The notes under the pieces: model-generated
Told to the model about the DNA's origin: nothing
The model's database searches: none
The model's input: only the letters and a program-made list of their open reading frames with translations
Translations under genes and position numbers: made by a program
In this document: positions 9,173 through 31,144 of the stretch, in pieces
Layout: every line of letters begins with the position of its first letter
How positions within the stretch are numbered: the first letter of the stretch is position 1
NCBI GenBank assembly: GCA_015488295.1
Contig: WFOC01000116.1
Coordinates: 1-32,382, forward strand
DNA: 32,382 nucleotides
Direction of reading: 5' to 3'
DNA from: Gammaproteobacteria bacterium
GTDB lineage: Bacteria; Pseudomonadota; Gammaproteobacteria; SZUA-229

Positions 9173-9978
9173 TAGTGTACGTCTGCTACCTGGCGTTGCC
9201 ATTTCAGGCTATTGAACCAGTATTCATGCACGCTTTTGATCCACTCATCAGCTTCATGCGCGATGATCCAGGCGTTAAGAAAGTTCAGCATGTCCTGGTC
9301 GCCTTTGTTGACAGCAAAAGCTTCTTTGGTTGTCAGCAGCGGGTTTTTTAATGGCAGGTCAACCGCGTCGGAATGTTTTAGTGAAATAAATTCAGGAATC
9401 GGTGAGGGCGCGACAAAGGCGTGCACTACGCCATTGATAACGGCTGAGCTGGCATCACGTTCGGTTTTGCGGATATCGAGCCTGGCTTTGGGGAAAACCT
9501 TGCGCGCAAGGCTGGCCGATACTGTGCCTTTTACTGCCGTGATATAGACTTTTTCGTTGTTCAGATCTTTGATGCTGTTGAAGTCCCGGGTTAGCTTCAG
9601 GTTGGTAACCAGGCTGTAACCGGAGCTGGAATAAGGCATGGAATAATTTATCTTCAAAGCGCGCTGTGGTGTAATGGAAAGCCCGGAAGCGATGATGTCT
9701 ATTTCGCCTTTTTGCAGCGCCGGGATCATCTGTTTCCACTGGTATTGCCTGAATACGGCTTTTACGCCGATGTCTTTTGCCAGTTGTCTGGCAATATCAA
9801 TCTCAAAACCGATTAGCTCGCCTTTTTTGTTCAGCATTACCCAGGGTGGCATGATGGAGACACCCACGCGTATTTCGCCGGCTTTTTGAATACTGTCGAG
9901 CAGGTTGCTGCCGGCTGTTGCGGCGCTGCTGAATGTCAGTGACAGGAGAAGAAGGAACAGTGCTTTTAAAAACTTCAT
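9172..9978 (-). CDS. Periplasmic substrate-binding protein, amino-acid ABC transporter type (SBP_bac_3)
   Basis: Signal peptide from internal Met (MKFLKALFLLLLSLTFSSAATA); IRVGVSIMPPWVMLNKKGELIGFEIDIARQLAKDIG, DIIASGLSITPQRA motifs. Confidence 0.85.
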   Translation of the reverse strand: MKFLKALFLLLLSLTFSSAATAGSNLLDSIQKAGEIRVGVSIMPPWVMLNKKGELIGFEIDIARQLAKDIGVKAVFRQYQWKQMIPALQKGEIDIIASGLSITPQRALKINYSMPYSSSGYSLVTNLKLTRDFNSIKDLNNEKVYITAVKGTVSASLARKVFPKARLDIRKTERDASSAVINGVVHAFVAPSPIPEFISLKHSDAVDLPLKNPLLTTKEAFAVNKGDQDMLNFLNAWIIAHEADEWIKSVHEYWFNSLKWQRQVADVH

Positions 9979-10278
9979 TGATAAACCTTTAGCGAAAACA
10001 GTATGTGTACCCGTTGTATCTTGCGTTATTTGCCTGTGTAGCGCAATTGCCAATCAGAGCGTTTGGCTGCATGTCTGGCTAAAAGCCTGTTGAGCCTGCG
10101 CTGGAACTGCATTGGGCGGTCAGTCCGGCAGCTTTAGGACGGATAAACCGGGAAAGGGTTCGGTTTTTTATAGAAATATCTGTCGCATCTGGTTTCGGGC
10201 AAATGCCGGTTCGGCACGAATTGCAATAATTCACTGATTTCGGCTGTTGAAAGTACACATTTTTATCAAACTTTGCTG

Positions 10279-10284
10279 TATAAT
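10279..10284 (+). promoter_or_regulatory. Candidate -10 box for the EF-G paralogue
   Basis: TATAAT ~133 nt upstream of the start; implies a long 5' leader. Confidence 0.4.
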
Positions 10285-10416
10285 TCGCCGGCTAAATTAA
10301 TCCTGATTGGTGTCATCGAAAGCCGGTCGTCTGAAAGCTGTTTTGTAGTGCTTGCTTTATCAGGATTGCGATTTTAACAATTTTAATTTAATGCATACAT
10401 TACGAGTAGTAGAGCC

Positions 10417-12507
10417 ATGGCAGACGTAGACCTAAGTAAATACAGAAATATCGGAATTTTCGCCCACGTGGATGCCGGTAAAACGACAACCACTGAACGT
10501 ATCCTGAAACTGACTGGTAAAATTCATAAAACCGGTGAAGTACATGATGGTGAAGCAACCACTGACTTCATGGAGCAGGAACAGGAACGCGGTATTACCA
10601 TTCAGTCTGCGGCCACCAGCTGTGAGTGGAACGGCCACCGTCTGAACATTATTGACACACCGGGACACGTTGACTTCACCATCGAAGTGTATCGTTCGCT
10701 GAAAGTGCTGGACGGCGGCATCGGCGTATTCTGTGGTTCGGGTGGTGTTGAGCCACAATCTGAAACTAACTGGCGTTATGCTAACGAATCAGAAGTTTCA
10801 CGTGTCATCTTTATCAACAAGCTGGACCGTATCGGTGCGGACTTCTACCGCGTGGTAAAACAGGTGGAAGACGTGCTGGGTGCGAACCCGCTGGTTATGG
10901 TACTGCCAATCGGCATCGAAGACGATTTCAAAGGTTGTGTTGACCTGCTGACTCGCAAAGCCTGGATCTGGGACAACGACGCAGACACCACGGCTTACCG
11001 TATCGAAGAGCCACCTGCTGAGATGGCTGACCAGATCGAAGAATGGCGTGAAAAACTGATTGAGACTGCGGTTGAGCAGGATGATGATGTTATGGAGCGT
11101 TACCTGGAAGGCGTAGAGCCGACACCGGAAGAGGTCAAGGCCTGCATCCGTAAGGGCACGCTGACCATGGACTTCTTCCCGACTTACTGTGGTTCTGCGT
11201 TTAAGGACAAAGGTGTGCAGCTGGTGCTGGATGCGGCGGTCGATTACCTGCCTGATCCAACCGAAGTCAAGCCACAGCCTGAAGTGGATCTGGAAGGTAA
11301 CGAGACTGGCGAATACGCTATCGTTGATCCGGACAGACCTTTGCGCGCACTGGCGTTCAAAATTATGGATGACCGTTTCGGCGCACTGACTTTCGTGCGT
11401 ATTTATTCCGGTCGCATGGACAAGGGCATGACCGTGCTTAACACCTTCACCGGCAAAACCGAACGTATCGGCCGTATGGTTGAGATGCACGCCGACGAGC
11501 GCATCGAGTTAGACGGCGCACAGGCGGGTGATATTATCGCTGTGGTCGGCATGAAGAACGTGCAGACCGGTCACACCCTGTGTGATCCGAAAAATCCTGC
11601 GACACTGGAACCAATGGTGTTCCCTGATCCGGTTATTTCGATTTCGATTTCACCAAACGACAAAGGTGCGTCTGAGAAGCTGGGCATCGCGCTGGGCAAG
11701 ATGATCAAAGAAGATCCATCGTTCCGCGTTGAAACCGACGAAGATTCTGGCGAGACCATTCTGAAAGGCATGGGTGAGTTACACCTCGACATCAAGGTCG
11801 ACATCCTGAAACGTACTCACGGTATCGAAGCGACCATCGGTAAACCACAGGTGGCTTATCGCGAAACCATTACCAAACGTGTTGAAGATTCCTACACGCA
11901 CAAGAAACAGTCTGGTGGTTCAGGCCAGTTCGGTAAAATCGATTACATCATCGAGCCGGGCGAGCCGGGCAGTGGTTACGAGTTTGAGTCAACGGTTACC
12001 GGTGGTAACGTGCCACGTGAGTTCTGGCCTGCGATTGAAAAAGGCTTCGAGAAAATGTCAGAGCACGGTGTGCTTGCCGGCTTCCCGTGTCTGGACTTTA
12101 AGGTAACACTGGTTGACGGTCAGTTCCACGCGGTGGATTCATCGGCTGTTGCTTTCGAACTGGCAGCGAAAGCCGCTTATCGTCAGTCTATGCCGAAAGC
12201 CGGTCCTCAGTTGATGGAGCCGATCATGAAGGTTGACGTGTTCACACCGGAAGATCATGTGGGTGATGTCATCGGTGACCTGAACCGTCGTCGCGGCATG
12301 ATCAAATCACAGGAAGCCGGTCCAACAGGCGTTCGCATTAAAGCTGAGTGCCCGCTGAGCGAGATGTTTGGTTACATTGGTACACTGCGTACCATGACAT
12401 CCGGACGTGGTCAGTTCTCTATGGAGTTCCTGCATTATGTAGCCGCACCGAAGAACGTTTCTGAAGAAGTGATTAAAGAAGTGAAGGAACGCGAAGCAGC
12501 CAAGTAA
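10417..12507 (+). CDS. fusA: Elongation factor G (paralogue-like, outside the str operon)
   Basis: [50 protein letters not shown] domains IV/V; 696 aa. No rpsL/rpsG/tuf neighbours. Confidence 0.93.
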
Positions 12508-19265: not shown

Positions 19266-21185
19266 GTGTTCGTGGATAAACAAAAATCGTCAAACATCAT
19301 CGATCTTAATCGCAGTCTTCAACAAAAAGAGACTGAGATCGAATTGTTGCAGAAGACTTTTACCGAAATCGGCAGCGAGCTGGATATCGAAAAAGTTTTT
19401 CAGATCGTCTCCGAGCGCGCGCGGGAACTGATCAATGCGGAAACCCTGTTAATCCCCCTGTTAGATAGTAACTGCGAAACCTATACTTATCGCGGTGGTG
19501 CTGGCAAAAATGCGGAAGAGATTGTCGGTGAGTCGCTGCCGCTGGATTTTGGTGTTTGCGGCTGGGTGTGGAAACATAAAAAACCCTGGTGGCAGGGCAT
19601 GATGAATGAGCTCAGTGGTGATGAAAAAAATCGCTGGGAGCAGGAAGCTGGCAATATGATTCTGGTGCCGCTGCAGGGGAAACGGCACTTTCTTGGTGGT
19701 ATTGCTGGTCTGAATAAGCGAGGAGGCGGTAGCTTTGGCAAAAAAGATCTCAGCCTGTTGCAGCTGTTTGCCAGCATCGTTTCTGTTGCTATTGAAAATG
19801 CCATGGCGGTCAAGAGCATGGAAGATTCACATGCGCTGAATGAAGACTACCGTTACAAGCTTGAAAACCTGAACAAACAGCTCATCGAAAGCAGCAAAGA
19901 GCTGGAATATCTGTCGTTATATGATTCGGTTACGGCGCTTCCTAATCGCTCATTATTTTATGATCGTCTTTCGCGTGACATTGTCGAAGCCAGAAATGAC
20001 GGCAGCACGATTGGCGTGCTCTTAATCGATATTGATAGTTTTAAGGACATCAATGATACGCTCGGCCATGATCTTGGTGACAGCCTGCTCAACAAAATTG
20101 CGCGCCGCTTTGATGACGGCATTAATATCAACGAAACACTGGCTCGCCTTGGTGGTGATGAATTTACCGTGATTTTACCCGGGCATGATCAGGCGCAGGT
20201 GCTCAGGCGTGCAGAAAAACTGATTGATAGCCTGAAGCCGGCTTTCATCCTTGAGAAAAACAGCATTGTGGTCAGCGCCAGTATTGGTGTTGCGGTTTAT
20301 CCGGATCATGGTGAGAACATCGGCAACCTGTTGAGCCACGCTGATTTTGCCATGTATGAAGCCAAAAGCAGCAGCCTGAAAATCTGTGTGTATAACCCGG
20401 ATAGCGATCATCTGGCGCAGGGGCATCTGGCGATGGTTGCCGACGTGCGAACAGCGATGAAAGAAAAACAGTTTGAACTGCATTATCAGCCAAAGGTCAG
20501 TGCGGTGAGTGGAAAGGTTGTTTCTGCAGAAGCTCTGGGACGCTGGTGCTGCACAGAGCGTGGTAATGTGCCGCCGAATATCTTTATCAATGTGCTTGAA
20601 CAGAACGGCCTGATTGATGAGTACACCTACTGGGCGATAGAGACGGCGCTGGCGCAGGCAAAAGACTGGCAGCAGCGTTACGGTGAGATGCGAATTGCTG
20701 TCAACCTGTCACCACAAACCTTGATGCATCCGGGCTTTAAGGAAAAGTTTGACCAGATTGTTAAAACAGAAAATGATGGCAAGTTGCTGACTTTTGAGAT
20801 TACAGAAAATCTGTTTTTGTCTGAGTTCGACCGGCTGGCCGAAGTGCTTGAGCATATCTGTGCGCTGGGCGTGGAATTATCGATTGATGATTATGGCACG
20901 GGTTATTCTTCGTTGAGCCGGCTCAGACGTTTGCCCGTTAGCGAATTAAAAATCGACCAGACCTTCATCAAGGAAATGGTCGACAATAAAGATGATCAGG
21001 TTCTGGTGCACTCAACCATCGAGCTGGCACATAATCTTGGTTTGAATGTGGTGGCCGAAGGCGTGGAAAATGAAGCGGCACTGGCACTGCTGAGAAAATT
21101 AGGCTGCGACACGATACAGGGTTTTTTGATCAGCCAGCCATTGCCGGTGGAAAAATTTAATGCGTTTATTGAAGCGCAGTCATAG
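19266..21185 (+). CDS. GAF-GGDEF-EAL bifunctional c-di-GMP signalling protein
   Basis: GAF-like N-terminus; RLGGDEFTVIL; EAL domain AEALGRW, VNLSPQTL, TFEITEN, SIDDYGTGYSSL, VVAEGVEN. GTG start. Confidence 0.92.
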   Translation: MFVDKQKSSNIIDLNRSLQQKETEIELLQKTFTEIGSELDIEKVFQIVSERARELINAETLLIPLLDSNCETYTYRGGAGKNAEEIVGESLPLDFGVCGWVWKHKKPWWQGMMNELSGDEKNRWEQEAGNMILVPLQGKRHFLGGIAGLNKRGGGSFGKKDLSLLQLFASIVSVAIENAMAVKSMEDSHALNEDYRYKLENLNKQLIESSKELEYLSLYDSVTALPNRSLFYDRLSRDIVEARNDGSTIGVLLIDIDSFKDINDTLGHDLGDSLLNKIARRFDDGININETLARLGGDEFTVILPGHDQAQVLRRAEKLIDSLKPAFILEKNSIVVSASIGVAVYPDHGENIGNLLSHADFAMYEAKSSSLKICVYNPDSDHLAQGHLAMVADVRTAMKEKQFELHYQPKVSAVSGKVVSAEALGRWCCTERGNVPPNIFINVLEQNGLIDEYTYWAIETALAQAKDWQQRYGEMRIAVNLSPQTLMHPGFKEKFDQIVKTENDGKLLTFEITENLFLSEFDRLAEVLEHICALGVELSIDDYGTGYSSLSRLRRLPVSELKIDQTFIKEMVDNKDDQVLVHSTIELAHNLGLNVVAEGVENEAALALLRKLGCDTIQGFLISQPLPVEKFNAFIEAQS

Positions 21186-21381: not shown

Positions 21382-22773
21382 TTAAAAACGAATAATCACC
21401 TTCAGCCCCTGCCCGCTATCAGCCTGGCATAGTTGCAAGCTTCCCCGGTGCATCTGCACCACACGATCAACAATTGACAGACCAATGCCGCAACCGGCGA
21501 CCTGGTGATTCTGCGCCCGATAAAATCGTTCCACGACCCGTTCACGATCTTCTTCTGAAATGCCCGGCCCGTTATCTTCAAAAATCAAAGTGGTTTTTTT
21601 ATCTTGCTGTGAAAGGCTTATTTTTATCTTTCCGTTTTCCGGCGTGTGCGAAATAGCATTGGTCAGCAGGTTGCGAATCAGTAGTCGCAGAGAAGGTTCG
21701 TTGCCATTGATCGACGCGGCATGTGTTTCGTTAAAGCTGATCTCGATGTTCCTGTTGATTGCCAGCGGGGATAACATGGCGCTTTCTTCGATAAGCAGCG
21801 CATTCAGATCTACCCGGGTAAAATCTTTGCTCAGCAGTTCGGGTTCCAGCCGTGCCAGTGTGAGCAGTTGTTCGACCAGGTGTGTGGTTCGGTCAACGCT
21901 GTGAATAACCTGATCAAGCGATTCATTTTGCTGTTTATGATTTTTGGCATTTTTTGCCAGCTCGGTGTGCAGGCGAATGGCTGCCAGCGGTGTGCGTAAC
22001 TCATGGGCTGCGTCTGAGGTGATGCGCTTTTCACGCGCCAGGGTTTCATTTAAGCGAGTTAATAACTGGTTGAGAGCATTTTTAATGGTTGATAATTCTG
22101 CATAATTATTATCAGTTTCTATTCGTTCAAGATTGTCACCGCTGCGCCGGTTGATCTGTGAGGCGAGTTGATGCAGTGGTTTCAGTCCCTGATAGATGGA
22201 GAAAAACATGATCAGGAACAGTGCCGGTATCAGAATAATGAACATGTAAAAAAGATCATTGCTGATTTTTCCGGTGAGGTCGTTGCGCACATCAATGCGC
22301 TCGGCGGTAATGCAGATGTATTGCCCGTTGCTGCTGCGAAGTTTGAATGCGCGCCAGTCGTAGCCGTTGATGAGCGTGTCGTGAAAGCCGGGAGCCTGTT
22401 CGGTGATTGGTTCCAGTGGCGCATTATATGATTTGATCAGCAGGTTGCCTTCATCATCCCAGACCTGAAAAGACAGCTTGGTCTCGTAGGCGTGTGCCGG
22501 ATTGTTGTCAGTGTTTTTACCCTGTTCTTCAAAATCGATATACATGAGTGCAATCCCGTTCTCATCCAGATATTCCTGAATTCTGGAAAAACCGCCGTCA
22601 GCGTTCTGTGATTGTGCCAGGCTGAGAATGATTCGGGCAGAGCGTGCCAGCTGGGCATCGAACAGCTCACGGGTTTCGTGACGTACATCCTGATAGGCGA
22701 ACCATGCGATGCCGCCGACCAGAATGATTGATGCAGTAATGAGGCGTGATAATAATTGAAAACGGATTGACAT
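21382..22773 (-). CDS. Sensor histidine kinase (QseC/PmrB-like)
   Basis: Two TM helices with periplasmic domain; H-box DAAHELRTPLAAIRLHTELAK; DNGPGISEEDRERVVERFYR; GCGIGLSIV. Confidence 0.92.
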   Translation of the reverse strand: MSIRFQLLSRLITASIILVGGIAWFAYQDVRHETRELFDAQLARSARIILSLAQSQNADGGFSRIQEYLDENGIALMYIDFEEQGKNTDNNPAHAYETKLSFQVWDDEGNLLIKSYNAPLEPITEQAPGFHDTLINGYDWRAFKLRSSNGQYICITAERIDVRNDLTGKISNDLFYMFIILIPALFLIMFFSIYQGLKPLHQLASQINRRSGDNLERIETDNNYAELSTIKNALNQLLTRLNETLAREKRITSDAAHELRTPLAAIRLHTELAKNAKNHKQQNESLDQVIHSVDRTTHLVEQLLTLARLEPELLSKDFTRVDLNALLIEESAMLSPLAINRNIEISFNETHAASINGNEPSLRLLIRNLLTNAISHTPENGKIKISLSQQDKKTTLIFEDNGPGISEEDRERVVERFYRAQNHQVAGCGIGLSIVDRVVQMHRGSLQLCQADSGQGLKVIIRF

Positions 22774-22790: not shown

Positions 22791-23450
22791 TCAGGCTTTA
22801 GCGATGATGTAACCGATGCCGCGCACGGTTTTGATCAGCTCGCTGCAGAATTTTTTGCGCAGGTGATGGATGTGTACCTCGATGGTGTTGCTTTCGATTT
22901 CGTCGCCCCAGCTGTAGAGCTTCTGCTCCAGATGGTGTCTTGATAAAACGCGGCCCTGATTGGTGATTAACTCTAGCAGCAGTGTGAATTCGCGCCGTGA
23001 TAGAGTTATGGGCTGCTGCCGGTATTCCACAGTATGGGCGGTGGTGTTGATAACAATGTCTTTGTATTGCAGTGTTTCTGATGCACTGCCGCGATTACGG
23101 CGGCTCAAAGCGCGCAGGCGAGCGCATAGCTCGGCAAACTCAAAAGGTTTTACCAGGTAGTCATCTGCGCCGGCATCAAGACCTTTGACGCGGTCAGCAA
23201 TATCGTCCTGTGCGGTGAGAATCAATACCGGGCTGTGGTCGTTTGCTTCGCGCATCTTTTTCAGCACATCAAGGCCGCTCATCCGGGGCAGGCCGATGTC
23301 CAGAATGATGCAGTCATATTGTGTGCCGGTGATGGCTGAGAGCGCAGTTTCGCCATTTTTCACCCAGTCGACAGCATTATCCTCGCGGCGCAAACCTGCG
23401 CAGACACCATCACCAAGTAGCGTATCGTCTTCGACCAGTAATATTCTCAC
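22791..23450 (-). CDS. OmpR-family response regulator (QseB/PmrA-like)
   Basis: MRILLVEDDTLLGDGV, DIGLPRMSGLDVL, DDYLVKPFEFAEL; winged-helix LSRREFTLLLELITNQGRVLSR...VHIHHLRKKF. Confidence 0.95.
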   Translation of the reverse strand: MRILLVEDDTLLGDGVCAGLRREDNAVDWVKNGETALSAITGTQYDCIILDIGLPRMSGLDVLKKMREANDHSPVLILTAQDDIADRVKGLDAGADDYLVKPFEFAELCARLRALSRRNRGSASETLQYKDIVINTTAHTVEYRQQPITLSRREFTLLLELITNQGRVLSRHHLEQKLYSWGDEIESNTIEVHIHHLRKKFCSELIKTVRGIGYIIAKA

Positions 23451-23493
23451 AATGTAATCCGTCGCTTTGTTTGTAGTGTTTTAGGCTTTCTTT

Positions 23494-23510
23494 CTTAAGG
23501 TTTTCTTAAG
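23494..23510. promoter_or_regulatory. PmrA/QseB-type box 1
   Basis: CTTAAG-GTTTT-CTTAAG, matching YTTAAK-N5-YTTAAK, in the intergenic region upstream of both the regulator and tlpA. Confidence 0.7.
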
Positions 23511-23541
23511 GCTGTGGCTGATGCTTTTAAATTTAACCAGT

Positions 23542-23558
23542 CTTAAGGGTTTTTTAAG
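23542..23558. promoter_or_regulatory. PmrA/QseB-type box 2
   Basis: CTTAAG-GGTTT-TTTAAG, matching YTTAAK-N5-YTTAAK, tlpA-proximal. Confidence 0.7.
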
Positions 23559-23612
23559 AAAGACAGATTACTCTTGTTGGCAGTAATTGAAAATTTATAT
23601 AACCGTTATTTT

Positions 23613-24107
23613 ATGAAAAAAATTATTGCCTTTATTCTACTGACGGCTTCCTTGCTGAGTTTGAATGTGTATGCCGAAGTGTCCCAGTCAGTAGCGCAGG
23701 CACCTGATATAAAACTGCCGACGGTCGATGGCAGTGTGCAGCTTTCTGACTTTAAGGGCAAAGTGGTCTATCTGGATTTCTGGGCATCGTGGTGTGTGCC
23801 CTGTAAAAAATCGTTTCCCTGGATGAATATCATGCAAAAACGTTATGCCGATCAGGGCTTTGTTATTGTGGCGGTTAATCTTGATAAAGAACGGGCGCTT
23901 GCTGATAAATTTCTTGAACAGATGGTGGTGAATTTTATAGTCGCTTTTGATGCCAGTGGCAGCAGTGCAGAAGAATACAAGTTGAGAGGTATGCCCAGCA
24001 GCTATTTGATTGGTCGTGATGGTAAGTTGCATGCGTCGCACATTGGCTTTCGTGAAAAAGATAAAGATAAATTAGAGCAGGCGATTAAAAGTCTGCTGCT
24101 CAGGTAG
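23613..24107 (+). CDS. TlpA/ResA-like exported thiol-disulfide oxidoreductase
   Basis: Signal peptide MKKIIAFILLTASLLSLNVYA; thioredoxin fold VYLDFWASWCVPCKKSFPWMN with WCVPC active site. Confidence 0.9.
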   Translation: MKKIIAFILLTASLLSLNVYAEVSQSVAQAPDIKLPTVDGSVQLSDFKGKVVYLDFWASWCVPCKKSFPWMNIMQKRYADQGFVIVAVNLDKERALADKFLEQMVVNFIVAFDASGSSAEEYKLRGMPSSYLIGRDGKLHASHIGFREKDKDKLEQAIKSLLLR

Positions 24108-24129: not shown

Positions 24130-24342
24130 ATGAAGTTAAGTCTTTTATTTATTGTTATGGCGCTGCTTGCAGGTTGCAGTTCTATGGGTGTGGAGCCGTG
24201 GCAACGTGATTTGCTGGCAAAAGATTCGATGCAGCCGGTACCGAATTATTTTGAAAACTTTTATGACGAGCATATCTATTTTAGTAAAGAAGCCTCCAGT
24301 GGTGGTCAGGGTGTTGGTGGAGGTGGCTGCGGATGCAACTGA
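24130..24342 (+). CDS. Small lipoprotein with glycine/cysteine C-terminus (DUF4266-like)
   Basis: Lipobox LLAGC; EPWQRDLLAKDSM; tail SSGGQGVGGGGCGCN; overlaps the next ORF. Confidence 0.85.
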   Translation: MKLSLLFIVMALLAGCSSMGVEPWQRDLLAKDSMQPVPNYFENFYDEHIYFSKEASSGGQGVGGGGCGCN

Positions 24343-25643
24343 TAAAGATCAAGGGCAAGCTTGCAATGGCGACCTGCACCCTGTTGCAGGTGAGTGCTTC
24401 TGTTAGTCAGGCCGGTGCCAGCCAGTCTGGTGACTGGGATATCGATTCCTCATTTTTATATTATTCAGAAAGTGATGGTCGGGTTACCGCGTTTGAACCG
24501 GCAGTAAGGGCCGGGGTTGATCTGGGTGATGATGAGTACATTAATTTTCAGGTAGTGGTTGATGCACTGACCGGTGCCACCCCCAACGGTGCGCATAAAT
24601 CAAAACAGGTGCAGACATTCACCAACCCGTCTGGCAAGGGTGAGTATACGGTGCAGCCTGGTGAGTTGCCATTGAGCACAACTTTTCGTGATACCCGCGT
24701 GGCAGTAACGGCAGAATGGGATAAACCCATTGATCGTTTGTCCAGTGTGCTGTTGGGTGCCAGTGTCTCGGCGGAGGTTGATTATACTTCGCTGGGTGTC
24801 AGCTCGACGTATCAACGTGACTTCAATAACAAAAATACCACGCTTGCTGCGGGCCTTGCATTAACCTTCGACACTATAATGCCTATCGGTGAAGTGCCGG
24901 AAGGTTTAAATCCGATGCGGGTTGGTGGTGTTGATCAGCAGCGTCTGGGAGCGAGTGATACCAGAGAAACGATTGATCTGGTAATTGGTTTTACCCAGAT
25001 TGTTAGTCGTACCACCCTGTTTCAGCTGAATTATACTTTCGGCACATCTTCGGGGTATCATAATGATTACAATAATGTATTAACCGTGGTGAATCCTGAT
25101 GGTACGCTGAGCACAGCGCCCTGGGTTGCATCAGGCACGGGTAATCGACCTTATCTATTTGAGAAACGCCCTGATTCACGCAGCAGAAATATTCTGTTTT
25201 TCAGAGGTGTGCATCACCTGACAGAAGACGTGATTAATTTCTCTTACCGCTATTTTACCGATGACTGGGGTATAAATTCACATACGCTGGATTTCAGATA
25301 CCGTTACCAGCTGAATTCGCGCCAGTACCTGCAGCCGCATATTCGTTACTACACACAGACCGGGGCAGATTTTTACCGGCATGATCTGGTGCAGGGCAGT
25401 GATGTTGATGCCAGTGGCGTGGCGATAGTGCAATATGCCAGCAGTGATTATCGCGTTGGTGCCTTTGATAGCACAACGCTGGGATTGTCTTATGGCATTG
25501 CTTTAACAAATAACAGCGAGCTCACCATACGTGGTGAGTTGATGCAGCAGAAGATTGATAATTCTGAAGTGCCAAGAGCCGGTGAGGAAACCCCTGATCT
25601 GACAGCGGTGATTTTCCAGATGGGTTACCGTTTTATCTGGTAG
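24333..25643 (+). CDS. DUF3570-like outer-membrane beta-barrel protein
   Basis: Alternating amphipathic strands, C-terminal aromatic (FQMGYRFIW); INFQVVVDALTGATPNGA; ATG lies within the preceding lipoprotein gene. Confidence 0.8.
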   Translation: MQLIKIKGKLAMATCTLLQVSASVSQAGASQSGDWDIDSSFLYYSESDGRVTAFEPAVRAGVDLGDDEYINFQVVVDALTGATPNGAHKSKQVQTFTNPSGKGEYTVQPGELPLSTTFRDTRVAVTAEWDKPIDRLSSVLLGASVSAEVDYTSLGVSSTYQRDFNNKNTTLAAGLALTFDTIMPIGEVPEGLNPMRVGGVDQQRLGASDTRETIDLVIGFTQIVSRTTLFQLNYTFGTSSGYHNDYNNVLTVVNPDGTLSTAPWVASGTGNRPYLFEKRPDSRSRNILFFRGVHHLTEDVINFSYRYFTDDWGINSHTLDFRYRYQLNSRQYLQPHIRYYTQTGADFYRHDLVQGSDVDASGVAIVQYASSDYRVGAFDSTTLGLSYGIALTNNSELTIRGELMQQKIDNSEVPRAGEETPDLTAVIFQMGYRFIW

Positions 25644-28400: not shown

Positions 28401-28576
28401 TGTGTCGATATATTGTAAATAGTAGATTTCCCGGCTTGAATTGCTATAAGTAAGCTAATAAAAATGTGATCAAACTCAGGGCTAAAGCAGGTTTTTTCGT
28501 TCTCTATTGTCTGTTATGTGCCTGCACCAGCCTGCAATTCTCATGAATTGCTCATTGATATTTGGGGAAACATCAC

Positions 28577-31144
28577 ATGTCTGATACTGCCGTCAAGCAA
28601 CGCATCCTGATTGTTGAAGAGTCAGCGACACTGCGTTACATTCTTGGCAAAACTCTCCAGAAGCAAGGTTACGAACTTATCAGCGCCGACAGTTTTGAGT
28701 CGGCGGTCGAGACACTGCAGACCAATACACTACAGCTGCATGCCATTCTGGTCGGCTGGCCTAATTACGAGCATTTTGAGCACTCCAAGCAACTGCTGGT
28801 TTTACTGGATCGTGAACCTTACAGCGAGGTGCCGGTGGTGCTGTTATCCAATGATGCCGAACTGGAACTGCTTAACTGGATGAGTACGCGTAAAACCACT
28901 GCACTGGTTCCCTGGGAAAATTATCAGGAAGTGGTGTCCTCATTGCAGTCGATGCTGGATACCGATTCACCTGAACCGATCATTGAGCAGCGCCAGTTCC
29001 GGCGAGACATAAGGCCGACGAGTGTGTTATTTGTCGATGATTCAAAAAGTATCCGTACTTATTACCAGCGTTTGCTGGAGCGCAATAATTACTCTGTGGT
29101 AACGGCGAGCTCGGTTGATGAGGCTTATAAAATTGCGCACGAGAAAGTGATCGACATTGCTATTGTTGATTATTTTATGCCGGAGCAGAACGGTTATGTG
29201 CTGTGCCAGAAATTAAGGGATGACCCGCTTACTGCTGATATTCGCACAGCGGTGATTACCGGCACTTATCTGGATTCTGTTATTCGTGACTGCCTGCAGG
29301 CGGGTGCGATTGAATGTATGTTTAAAAATGAAGCGGAAGAATTATTTCTGGCGCGTATTTCGGGGATGCGCCGTTTTATCGAAGTGCAGCGTTCTATAGA
29401 AAAGCAACGTGAAAATCTTTCTGCCATTTTAGAGTCGGTGGGTGAAGGTGTTTACGGCGTTGACAAAGATGGTCGCATCACTTTTATGAATCCTGCTGCG
29501 TTAAAAGTTCTGGGGCTGCATGATGTAAAGCCTTTGCTTGGTGTTGGTGCCTATGATGCGTTTCATTGCAGGCAGCACGACATCGGTCGTGACCTGTTGA
29601 AGGAAGCCTATTATTCCGGTGAACAATTAAAAGGCTGGGAAACGCAGTTTCGCCATAAAAACGGAAAAGAGATTCCGGTTGACTGCACGTTGTACGCGTT
29701 GTCGGTAAATGGTAAGCAGGAAGGTTCAGTGATTGCGTTTCGTGATATTTCTGAACGCAAGATGATGGAAGAGAAACTGCGTTGGCAGGCAACGCATGAT
29801 CACCTTACCGGCTTATACAACCGTCGTTATTTTGAAACCTATCTGGAAAAAGAGATCGGCAATGTTAACCGTACCGGCATCATGAGTGCGCTGGTATATC
29901 TTGATCTGGATCGCTTTAAATACGTTAACGATACGGCCGGCCATGAAGTCGGTGACAAGCTGCTCATTGATCTTAGTAACGAACTCAATAAACATTTACG
30001 TCGTCATGATATTGCAGCACGAATCGGTGGCGATGAATTTGCCCTGATTCTGAAAAATGTTGATGAAGGTATGGCGGTAAGTATTGCCGATGAAATCCGT
30101 GTATCACTTTCCAATCTGCGCGTGCATCATGAAGACAAGGCGTATCATGTCAATGCCAGTTTTGGTGTGGCGATGATGGATATAGCCGACATTACGGCCG
30201 GTGACGTAATGGCGAATGCAGATATTGCCTGCCATATTTCAAAACGACTGGGCCGCAATCAGACACACATGTACGAAAAAGGCAGTGATGAGCGTAACGC
30301 CATGGGCAGTGAGCTGGGCTGGTCGGTGCGTATCCGTGATGCGCTGGAAAAAGATATGTTCCAGCTGCATTATCAGCCCATCATGCGTATGGAAGATGTC
30401 GATCTGGTTAACCTGCCGGCGCAGGATGGTGTTCTCTGGCAGCGCCACCTGGATGAAACCGACAAGGTTAATAGTTATGAAGTGCTGGTTCGCATGATTG
30501 ATGAGAATGGCGAATTAAACTACCCTGACAGCTTTATTCCGACGGCAGAACGTTTCAACATGATGACCGATATTGATATGTGGGTGCTGGAAAATGCCCT
30601 GCAGGAAATGGTTGCTACCGGGCCGGCGAGTAAAAACATACGGCTGTCGATTAACATCTCCGGCAATACGGTAGACAGTGATGAGACGCTGGGAAAAATA
30701 AAAGCGTTGATCGAGCAATACGATATCAGTCCCAGCTCATTGACCTTTGAAGTGACTGAAACCTGTGCTATTGCAAACCTGGAGCAGGCCAATGATTTTA
30801 TCAACGAGCTGAGAAAAATCGGTTGCCGTTTCTCGCTGGATGATTTTGGTTCAGGATTCTGTTCGTTCTCGCAACTGAAAAATCTGCCTACCGACTTTGT
30901 CAAAATTGATGGCCAGTTTGTGCGTAGCATGGCGCGTGGAGCAACCGACCGTGCCATCGTTACTGCGATGAATGATGTTGCGCATTCGCTGGGGCGTTAT
31001 ACCGTGGCAGAATACGTGGAGAGCCCAGAGATTGTGCGGTTGCTGAAAATTTGCGGTGTTGACAAGATTCAGGGGAATTATATTTCGGTGCCGTTGACTG
31101 GTCTGCCGAATACGAATGTTTTCAAGTTGCAGCAAAGTGTTTGA
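28577..31144 (+). CDS. Tandem receiver-PAS-GGDEF-EAL signalling protein
   Basis: Two N-terminal CheY-like domains (second: FVDDSKSIR, IVDYFMPEQNGY), PAS, RIGGDEFALIL, EAL domain (YEVLVRM, SINISGNTV, FEVTET, SLDDFGSGF). ATG at 28577 with GGGGAAAC upstream. Confidence 0.92.
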   Translation: MSDTAVKQRILIVEESATLRYILGKTLQKQGYELISADSFESAVETLQTNTLQLHAILVGWPNYEHFEHSKQLLVLLDREPYSEVPVVLLSNDAELELLNWMSTRKTTALVPWENYQEVVSSLQSMLDTDSPEPIIEQRQFRRDIRPTSVLFVDDSKSIRTYYQRLLERNNYSVVTASSVDEAYKIAHEKVIDIAIVDYFMPEQNGYVLCQKLRDDPLTADIRTAVITGTYLDSVIRDCLQAGAIECMFKNEAEELFLARISGMRRFIEVQRSIEKQRENLSAILESVGEGVYGVDKDGRITFMNPAALKVLGLHDVKPLLGVGAYDAFHCRQHDIGRDLLKEAYYSGEQLKGWETQFRHKNGKEIPVDCTLYALSVNGKQEGSVIAFRDISERKMMEEKLRWQATHDHLTGLYNRRYFETYLEKEIGNVNRTGIMSALVYLDLDRFKYVNDTAGHEVGDKLLIDLSNELNKHLRRHDIAARIGGDEFALILKNVDEGMAVSIADEIRVSLSNLRVHHEDKAYHVNASFGVAMMDIADITAGDVMANADIACHISKRLGRNQTHMYEKGSDERNAMGSELGWSVRIRDALEKDMFQLHYQPIMRMEDVDLVNLPAQDGVLWQRHLDETDKVNSYEVLVRMIDENGELNYPDSFIPTAERFNMMTDIDMWVLENALQEMVATGPASKNIRLSINISGNTVDSDETLGKIKALIEQYDISPSSLTFEVTETCAIANLEQANDFINELRKIGCRFSLDDFGSGFCSFSQLKNLPTDFVKIDGQFVRSMARGATDRAIVTAMNDVAHSLGRYTVAEYVESPEIVRLLKICGVDKIQGNYISVPLTGLPNTNVFKLQQSV

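Follow-up and report, generated by a model that had tools for sequence, protein, structure and literature searches.

Two boxes in the divergent gap between an OmpR-family response regulator gene and a tlpA operon are predicted to be tandem operators of the adjacent regulator, through which it would switch on the genes of a putative DsbD-TlpA-DUF3570 relay. Judged from sequence, the probability of this reading is roughly 0.8. The locus (Table 1) lies in a window of 32,382 nucleotides, the whole stretch of DNA that was analysed. By eye, the region lies between two large proteins of GGDEF-EAL type (19266-21185 and 28562-31144), the second of which also has receiver-like and PAS-like parts.

Table 1. 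Genes and proposed regulatory elements of the locus (positions in the window)
Feature	Position	Strand	Remarks
Sensor histidine kinase, 2CSK_N, QseC-like	21382..22773	-	ExxE (HETRE) right after the first transmembrane stretch
OmpR-family response regulator (Response_reg + Trans_reg_C)	22791..23450	-	Nearest to QseB/PmrA models, below their cut-offs
Possible regulator -10, TAAAAC	23478..23483	-	10 bp past box 1; weak, unconserved in relatives
Box 1, CTTAAG-GTTTT-CTTAAG	23494..23510	both strands	TTAAG-N6-TTAAG perfect on both strands; proposed operator of the leftward regulator promoter
Degenerate third half-site, TTTAA	23532..23536	+	Two-mismatch match TTTAACCAGTCTTAAG; role inferred only
Box 2, CTTAAG-GGTTT-TTTAAG	23542..23558	+	TTAAG-N6-TTAAG perfect on +, one mismatch on -; proposed activator site of the tlpA operon
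Proposed tlpA -10, TACTCT	23569..23574	+	Exactly 10 bp past box 2
TlpA/ResA-like thioredoxin-fold protein	23613..24107	+	Signal peptide, WCVPCK
DUF4266 lipoprotein, 70 aa	24130..24342	+	PF14086, E 2e-20; C-terminal GGGGCGCN
DUF3570 outer-membrane-barrel-like protein	24333..25643	+	PF12094, E 2e-117; TGAT flavinylation-type motif

The gap that holds both boxes is 162 bp long (23451-23612), and is bounded by the GTG start of the regulator on the minus strand and by an ATG of tlpA. This ATG opens the signal-peptide-like sequence MKKIIAFILLTASLLSLNVYA; the start given in the open reading frame list is an earlier TTG, at 23574. The sequence-only reading had reported the two boxes with 31 bp between them, and both are present letter-for-letter. 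It had also related them to the YTTAAK-N5-YTTAAK consensus of PmrA/QseB-type regulators. Both boxes match this consensus, and are its only zero-mismatch matches in the window, but the consensus itself is unselective: when up to two mismatches are allowed, 27 matches are found in the window against 26.5 expected, and genome-wide there are 12 exact oriented matches against 10 for the reversed control. The genome scan that had been proposed as a means of defining the regulon was run with this pattern and could not define it.

The word that is conserved is stricter, TTAAG-N6-TTAAG, in which TTAA is usually followed by G and rarely by T. It has only eight separate exact copies in the 2.71-Mb assembly. 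Box 1 and box 2, 48 bp apart, are two of these, so the presence of both in one gap is very unlikely to be due to chance (about 1e-7 per gap for two exact 16-mers, by hand estimate). With one mismatch the word is not enriched genome-wide (44+58 matches against 80+88 for the control). The signal rests on the pairing of the boxes and on their conservation, not on a genome-wide count.

Among 369 genomes sampled from the class, 95 have DUF3570. In a first set of 58 loci, a divergent regulator-kinase pair adjoins the operon in four (L079, L083, L084 and L092); in these four and in the window, a perfect TTAAG-N6-TTAAG always separates the regulator from the operon (in L083 it falls slightly within the DUF4266 gene as called), and few other loci have it. 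A second set comprised 80 named DUF3570 loci, 69 of them with enough upstream sequence, on contigs some of which were also in the first set; these contigs were scanned with a four-sequence DUF3570 alignment, an eight-sequence one being too diverged. A perfect box was found upstream of the operon in 21 of the 24 loci with a QseB/PmrA-like regulator nearby, as against 5 of the 45 without (regulator without box, 3; neither, 40; Fisher P 3.6e-10, uncorrected for phylogeny). In one of the positive loci, L208, the only site is a distant one, at -385. Two of the three regulator-bearing exceptions, L147 and L157, have one-mismatch boxes, and the third, L154, has none. The regulator lies downstream of the operon in L189 and L190 (Pseudocolwellia), L187 (Cellvibrionaceae) and L206, all distant from the window, and the box is still upstream of the operon.

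An unbiased dyad count over the gaps of 23 regulators, retained after those more than 85% identical had been dropped, gave TTAA-N7-TTAA as the top dyad, tied with its own shifted forms (22/23 against 11/45). Several loci have two or three sites per gap, with starts 37, 48, 51 or 54 bp apart, and some have a single box. Together with the -10 spacing and the base-contact residues described below, this co-occurrence supports the earlier prediction that the adjacent regulator controls the tlpA-lipoprotein-barrel operon, which can be considered computationally well supported.

In 20 of 25 promoters (14/17 for tlpA and 6/8 for dsbD) a TANNNT element lies 10-11 bp after the second TTAAG, where about 6% would be expected per promoter; the pattern was first seen by eye and then counted on much the same promoters, which makes its P value optimistic. 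The downstream half-site was considered as a classical -35 and rejected, and the 10-bp geometry is preferred because there is no consistent -10 at 16-18 bp past that half-site. In the inferred promoters, the upstream half-site falls at approximately -38 to -34 and the downstream one at approximately -27 to -23. No sigma-70-like promoter, and no good -35, was found at the locus. In the PmrA-pbgP promoter complex, the -35 is likewise at half-site 1 (PMC4660055). The degenerate third half-site of the window is 11 bp upstream of the first half-site of box 2.

Box 2 would most likely drive tlpA-DUF4266-DUF3570. Box 1 may be the self-control site of the regulator, on weaker evidence. It faces the regulator gene, with TAAAAC 10 bp beyond it, but no consistent -10 is conserved on that side among the relatives, and autoregulation is for this reason the weaker half of the original claim.

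The sequence-only reading had predicted control of the divergent pair. The tlpA side of that prediction is supported, but the predicted regulon also takes in dsbD, with the divergent fxsA. In the same genome, dsbD is itself preceded, at 85 bp, by another perfect site (G000:C47:5015-5030, L012). Among the perfect sites that could be read in six regulator-bearing genomes, the only recurrent flanking promoters were those of regulator/tlpA and of the divergent fxsA/dsbD pair. A perfect box upstream of dsbD was found in nine regulator-bearing genomes (G000, G369, G375, G383, G381, G382, G388, G389 and G386), two of them Pseudocolwellia; in G386 the gap is common to dsbD and tlpA. None of the 19 dsbD loci in genomes without the linked regulator has one. 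Over half of the genomes with the regulator have a dsbD without the box, among them G371 and G372 (69% regulator identity with the window), which suggests that dsbD is a frequent target of the regulator, but not a universal one. In L187, L170 and L206, dsbD is inside the cluster. The gene divergent from dsbD, for an fxsA-like membrane protein (by eye; L012 982-1491), shares the box gap in at least five genomes and may be co-regulated.

Other candidate targets fared less well. Neither of the two ApbE genes in the assembly is linked to the window operon. Although apbE would be expected to belong to the same pathway, no perfect box was found at apbE in any of the 29 loci scanned in regulator-bearing genomes (two with cut or short upstream sequence), and the apbE of the window's genome has a one-mismatch box; apbE was rejected as a separately controlled target. 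Orthologues of this unlinked gene (L130; 61-65% identity) follow DUF3570 directly in L135, L138, L140, L141, L143 and L151, and would share the operator there. The cluster-type apbE itself (L130 1471-3142) adjoins DUF971-like and sulfate adenylyltransferase-like genes (by eye). A site at rpsF (L004), a palindrome between cysS and rpsF, is non-recurrent and was taken as a chance match or a terminator. The genes feoAB were reduced from core to suggestive targets, a one-mismatch box being close to feoA only in the window's genome and in G369.

The neighbourhood of the operon varies. In L187 (1291-10957; a Cellvibrionaceae MAG), feoA-feoB, dsbD, tlpA, DUF3570, apbE, regulator and kinase form one cluster. 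In L189 (12535-14412), L206 (7187-8992) and L190, the kinase is followed by genes for three proteins, the first cupredoxin-like, the second a membrane protein of about 260 aa and the third of about 240 aa, an arrangement seen in regulator-bearing loci only; the last two proteins have no Pfam match in L189, the locus tested. L189 (Pseudocolwellia agarivorans) also encodes, between DUF3570 and the regulator, a methyl-accepting-type protein with MCPsignal and CZB zinc-binding domains (9437-10549).

The three genes downstream of box 2 make up a single operon with matches to Redoxin/AhpC-TSA, PF14086 and PF12094, i.e. the thioredoxin-like, DUF4266 and DUF3570 set. The DUF4266 and DUF3570 reading frames share 10 bp (24333-24342), which suggests translational coupling. 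The TGAT of the DUF3570 protein, at residues 80-83, agrees with the pattern [S/T]GA[S/T], and LTG(A/S)(S/T) is present in 8/8 aligned sequences; no second flavinylation motif was found in the protein by eye. The same gene set appears in published clusters: ApbE, DUF3570, DUF4266 and a thioredoxin-like protein are encoded together, often with DsbD, a DUF3570 protein was shown to be flavinylated by ApbE, and DsbD is proposed, from gene clustering, to feed electrons to the DUF3570 system (Meheust et al., 2021, PMC8238504). This was the sole paper naming DUF3570 in the open-licence PMC literature searched. The passages of that paper on these clusters describe no regulator or operator, whereas the window system has a regulator and predicted operators; and dsbD, often included in the published clusters, is unlinked in the window's genome, where it is joined to the system only by the common operator.

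A mechanism can be proposed on this basis. The kinase would activate the OmpR-family regulator, a dimer of which would occupy the pair of TTAAG half-sites, arranged head to tail with an 11-bp period. The upstream half-site would lie across the -35 region and the -10 ten bp past the downstream one, and RNA polymerase would be recruited, at box 2 for the tlpA operon and, most likely, at box 1 for the regulator-kinase pair; the third perfect box, elsewhere in the genome, would drive dsbD and perhaps the divergent fxsA. Electrons would then pass from DsbD to TlpA (and DUF4266) and on to the flavinylated DUF3570 protein.

The regulator could instead be an orthologue of PmrA or QseB, with the boxes belonging to a polymyxin/LPS or QseBC-type regulon. 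Its top NCBIfam scores are indeed those for QseB (NF007663, 244.3 bits) and PmrA (NF007928, 241.7 bits), and its best PDB match is E. coli BasR; both scores, however, fall far short of the curated cut-offs (345 and 330 bits), and either name would be wrong. The kinase gives a similar picture: like QseC it has a 2CSK_N sensor domain, and a QseC-type model is the best-scoring one, at 244 against a cut-off of 475; the targets of the pair also differ from those of QseBC. With PmrA/BasR of the Enterobacteriaceae the regulator shares the OmpR-family fold, and the boxes share a direct repeat of 11-bp period with the -35 at the upstream half-site; the PmrA box of K. pneumoniae corresponds in half-site, in spacing and in its placement relative to the -35. 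Nevertheless, PmrA half-sites are CTTAAT/CCTAAG, whereas those of the window type are TTAAG, ending in G and rarely in T. The base contacts of PmrA are made by Asn188, Asn196 and Arg210 (PMC4660055). The equivalents of Asn188 and Arg210 are invariant in all 25 linked regulators, but that of Asn196 is His in the window and in 22 of the 25, so that the three-residue contact set is incomplete; in addition, Thr187 is replaced by Ser and Glu199 by Lys in all 25. No polymyxin-type target genes were seen at window-type sites, and LPS-modification genes did not recur at the sites in six genomes. Orthology to PmrA or QseB is thus very improbable, and the regulator fits a TTAA-reading relative of PmrA with another edge preference. 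A 2CSK_N search of twelve genomes gave one match each in nine, of which eight were the operon-linked kinase and the ninth (G383) was weak and on another contig; there was no match in the genomes of L189, L187 and L206, where the linked kinases are too diverged for the model. As no second QseC-like kinase was seen in the twelve genomes, the pair is consistent with a dedicated two-component system.

Two further explanations concern the boxes themselves. The bound regulator might hold the operon off, through a loop joining box 1 and box 2, and release it in response to a signal; the multiple sites per gap at their various spacings would suit this, as would sites that cover the -35 and the spacer between it and the -10. 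However, the constant distance to the -10 and the absence of a good -35 match PmrA-like activation, and some loci have a single box, so that repression appears improbable. The least likely explanation, to which we give almost no weight, is that the boxes are chance AT-rich words, or a palindromic terminator or attenuator. CTTAAG is self-complementary, and TTAAG-N6-TTAAG sites on their own do not outnumber the control; against this, no terminator-like site was found at the locus, and the boxes are kept across genera, together with the regulator, at equivalent positions in gaps that have otherwise diverged. Operators through which the adjacent regulator activates the relay genes remain the preferred reading.

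A sharper form of this reading, and compatible with it, is an Fe(II) switch, in which a BqsS-like kinase would sense periplasmic Fe(II) and the regulon would comprise iron redox chemistry and uptake, including feoAB. TTAAG-N6-TTAAG is the operator of the Fe(II)-responsive BqsR, the most downstream pentamer of which is reported to overlap the -35 (PMC4682146). Both boxes equal this repeat exactly, and the window has the half-site, the spacing and the clustering of operators in the promoter in common with BqsRS/CarRS of Pseudomonas aeruginosa; the overlap of the downstream pentamer with the -35 is not seen, the downstream half-site of the window falling between the -35 and -10 of the inferred promoters. 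In BqsS, an R-E-x-x-E motif (ExxE) is implicated in iron sensing (PMC12666569). The H-E-x-x-E of the window kinase is similarly placed near the first transmembrane helix. Most linked kinases have an ExxE, but those of L189, L190 and L206 lack it, and it overlaps the general, family-wide ELFDAQL motif. The likeness to BqsRS was judged from these published descriptions of operator and ExxE. The feoAB genes are within the cluster of L187 and of L157, and in the window's genome a one-mismatch box lies 94 bp upstream of feoA; this box is unconserved, with a one-mismatch match close to feoA in only one other genome. Iron is a plausible signal and, among candidates, the leading one, and the switch a tentative proposal at less than even odds. 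The fuller claim, more doubtful still, is that a DsbD-powered, flavin-bearing outer-membrane electron relay is under the control of a dedicated Fe(II)-sensing two-component system not described before. If it were true, iron itself would switch envelope iron redox chemistry in many uncultured Gammaproteobacteria.

An operator of this type has been described before; no report was found of the target system, of dsbD among the targets or of the dedicated regulator in the open-licence PMC literature searched. DUF3570 and DUF4266 proteins are without a known physiological role, and a dedicated regulator with a readable operator would provide a handle on when the DUF3570 system is used. That an unlinked dsbD has the common operator is evidence, separate from gene clustering, for DsbD as the electron donor. 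The box, the -10 spacing and the predicted targets are directly testable in cultured relatives, for example Pseudocolwellia agarivorans.
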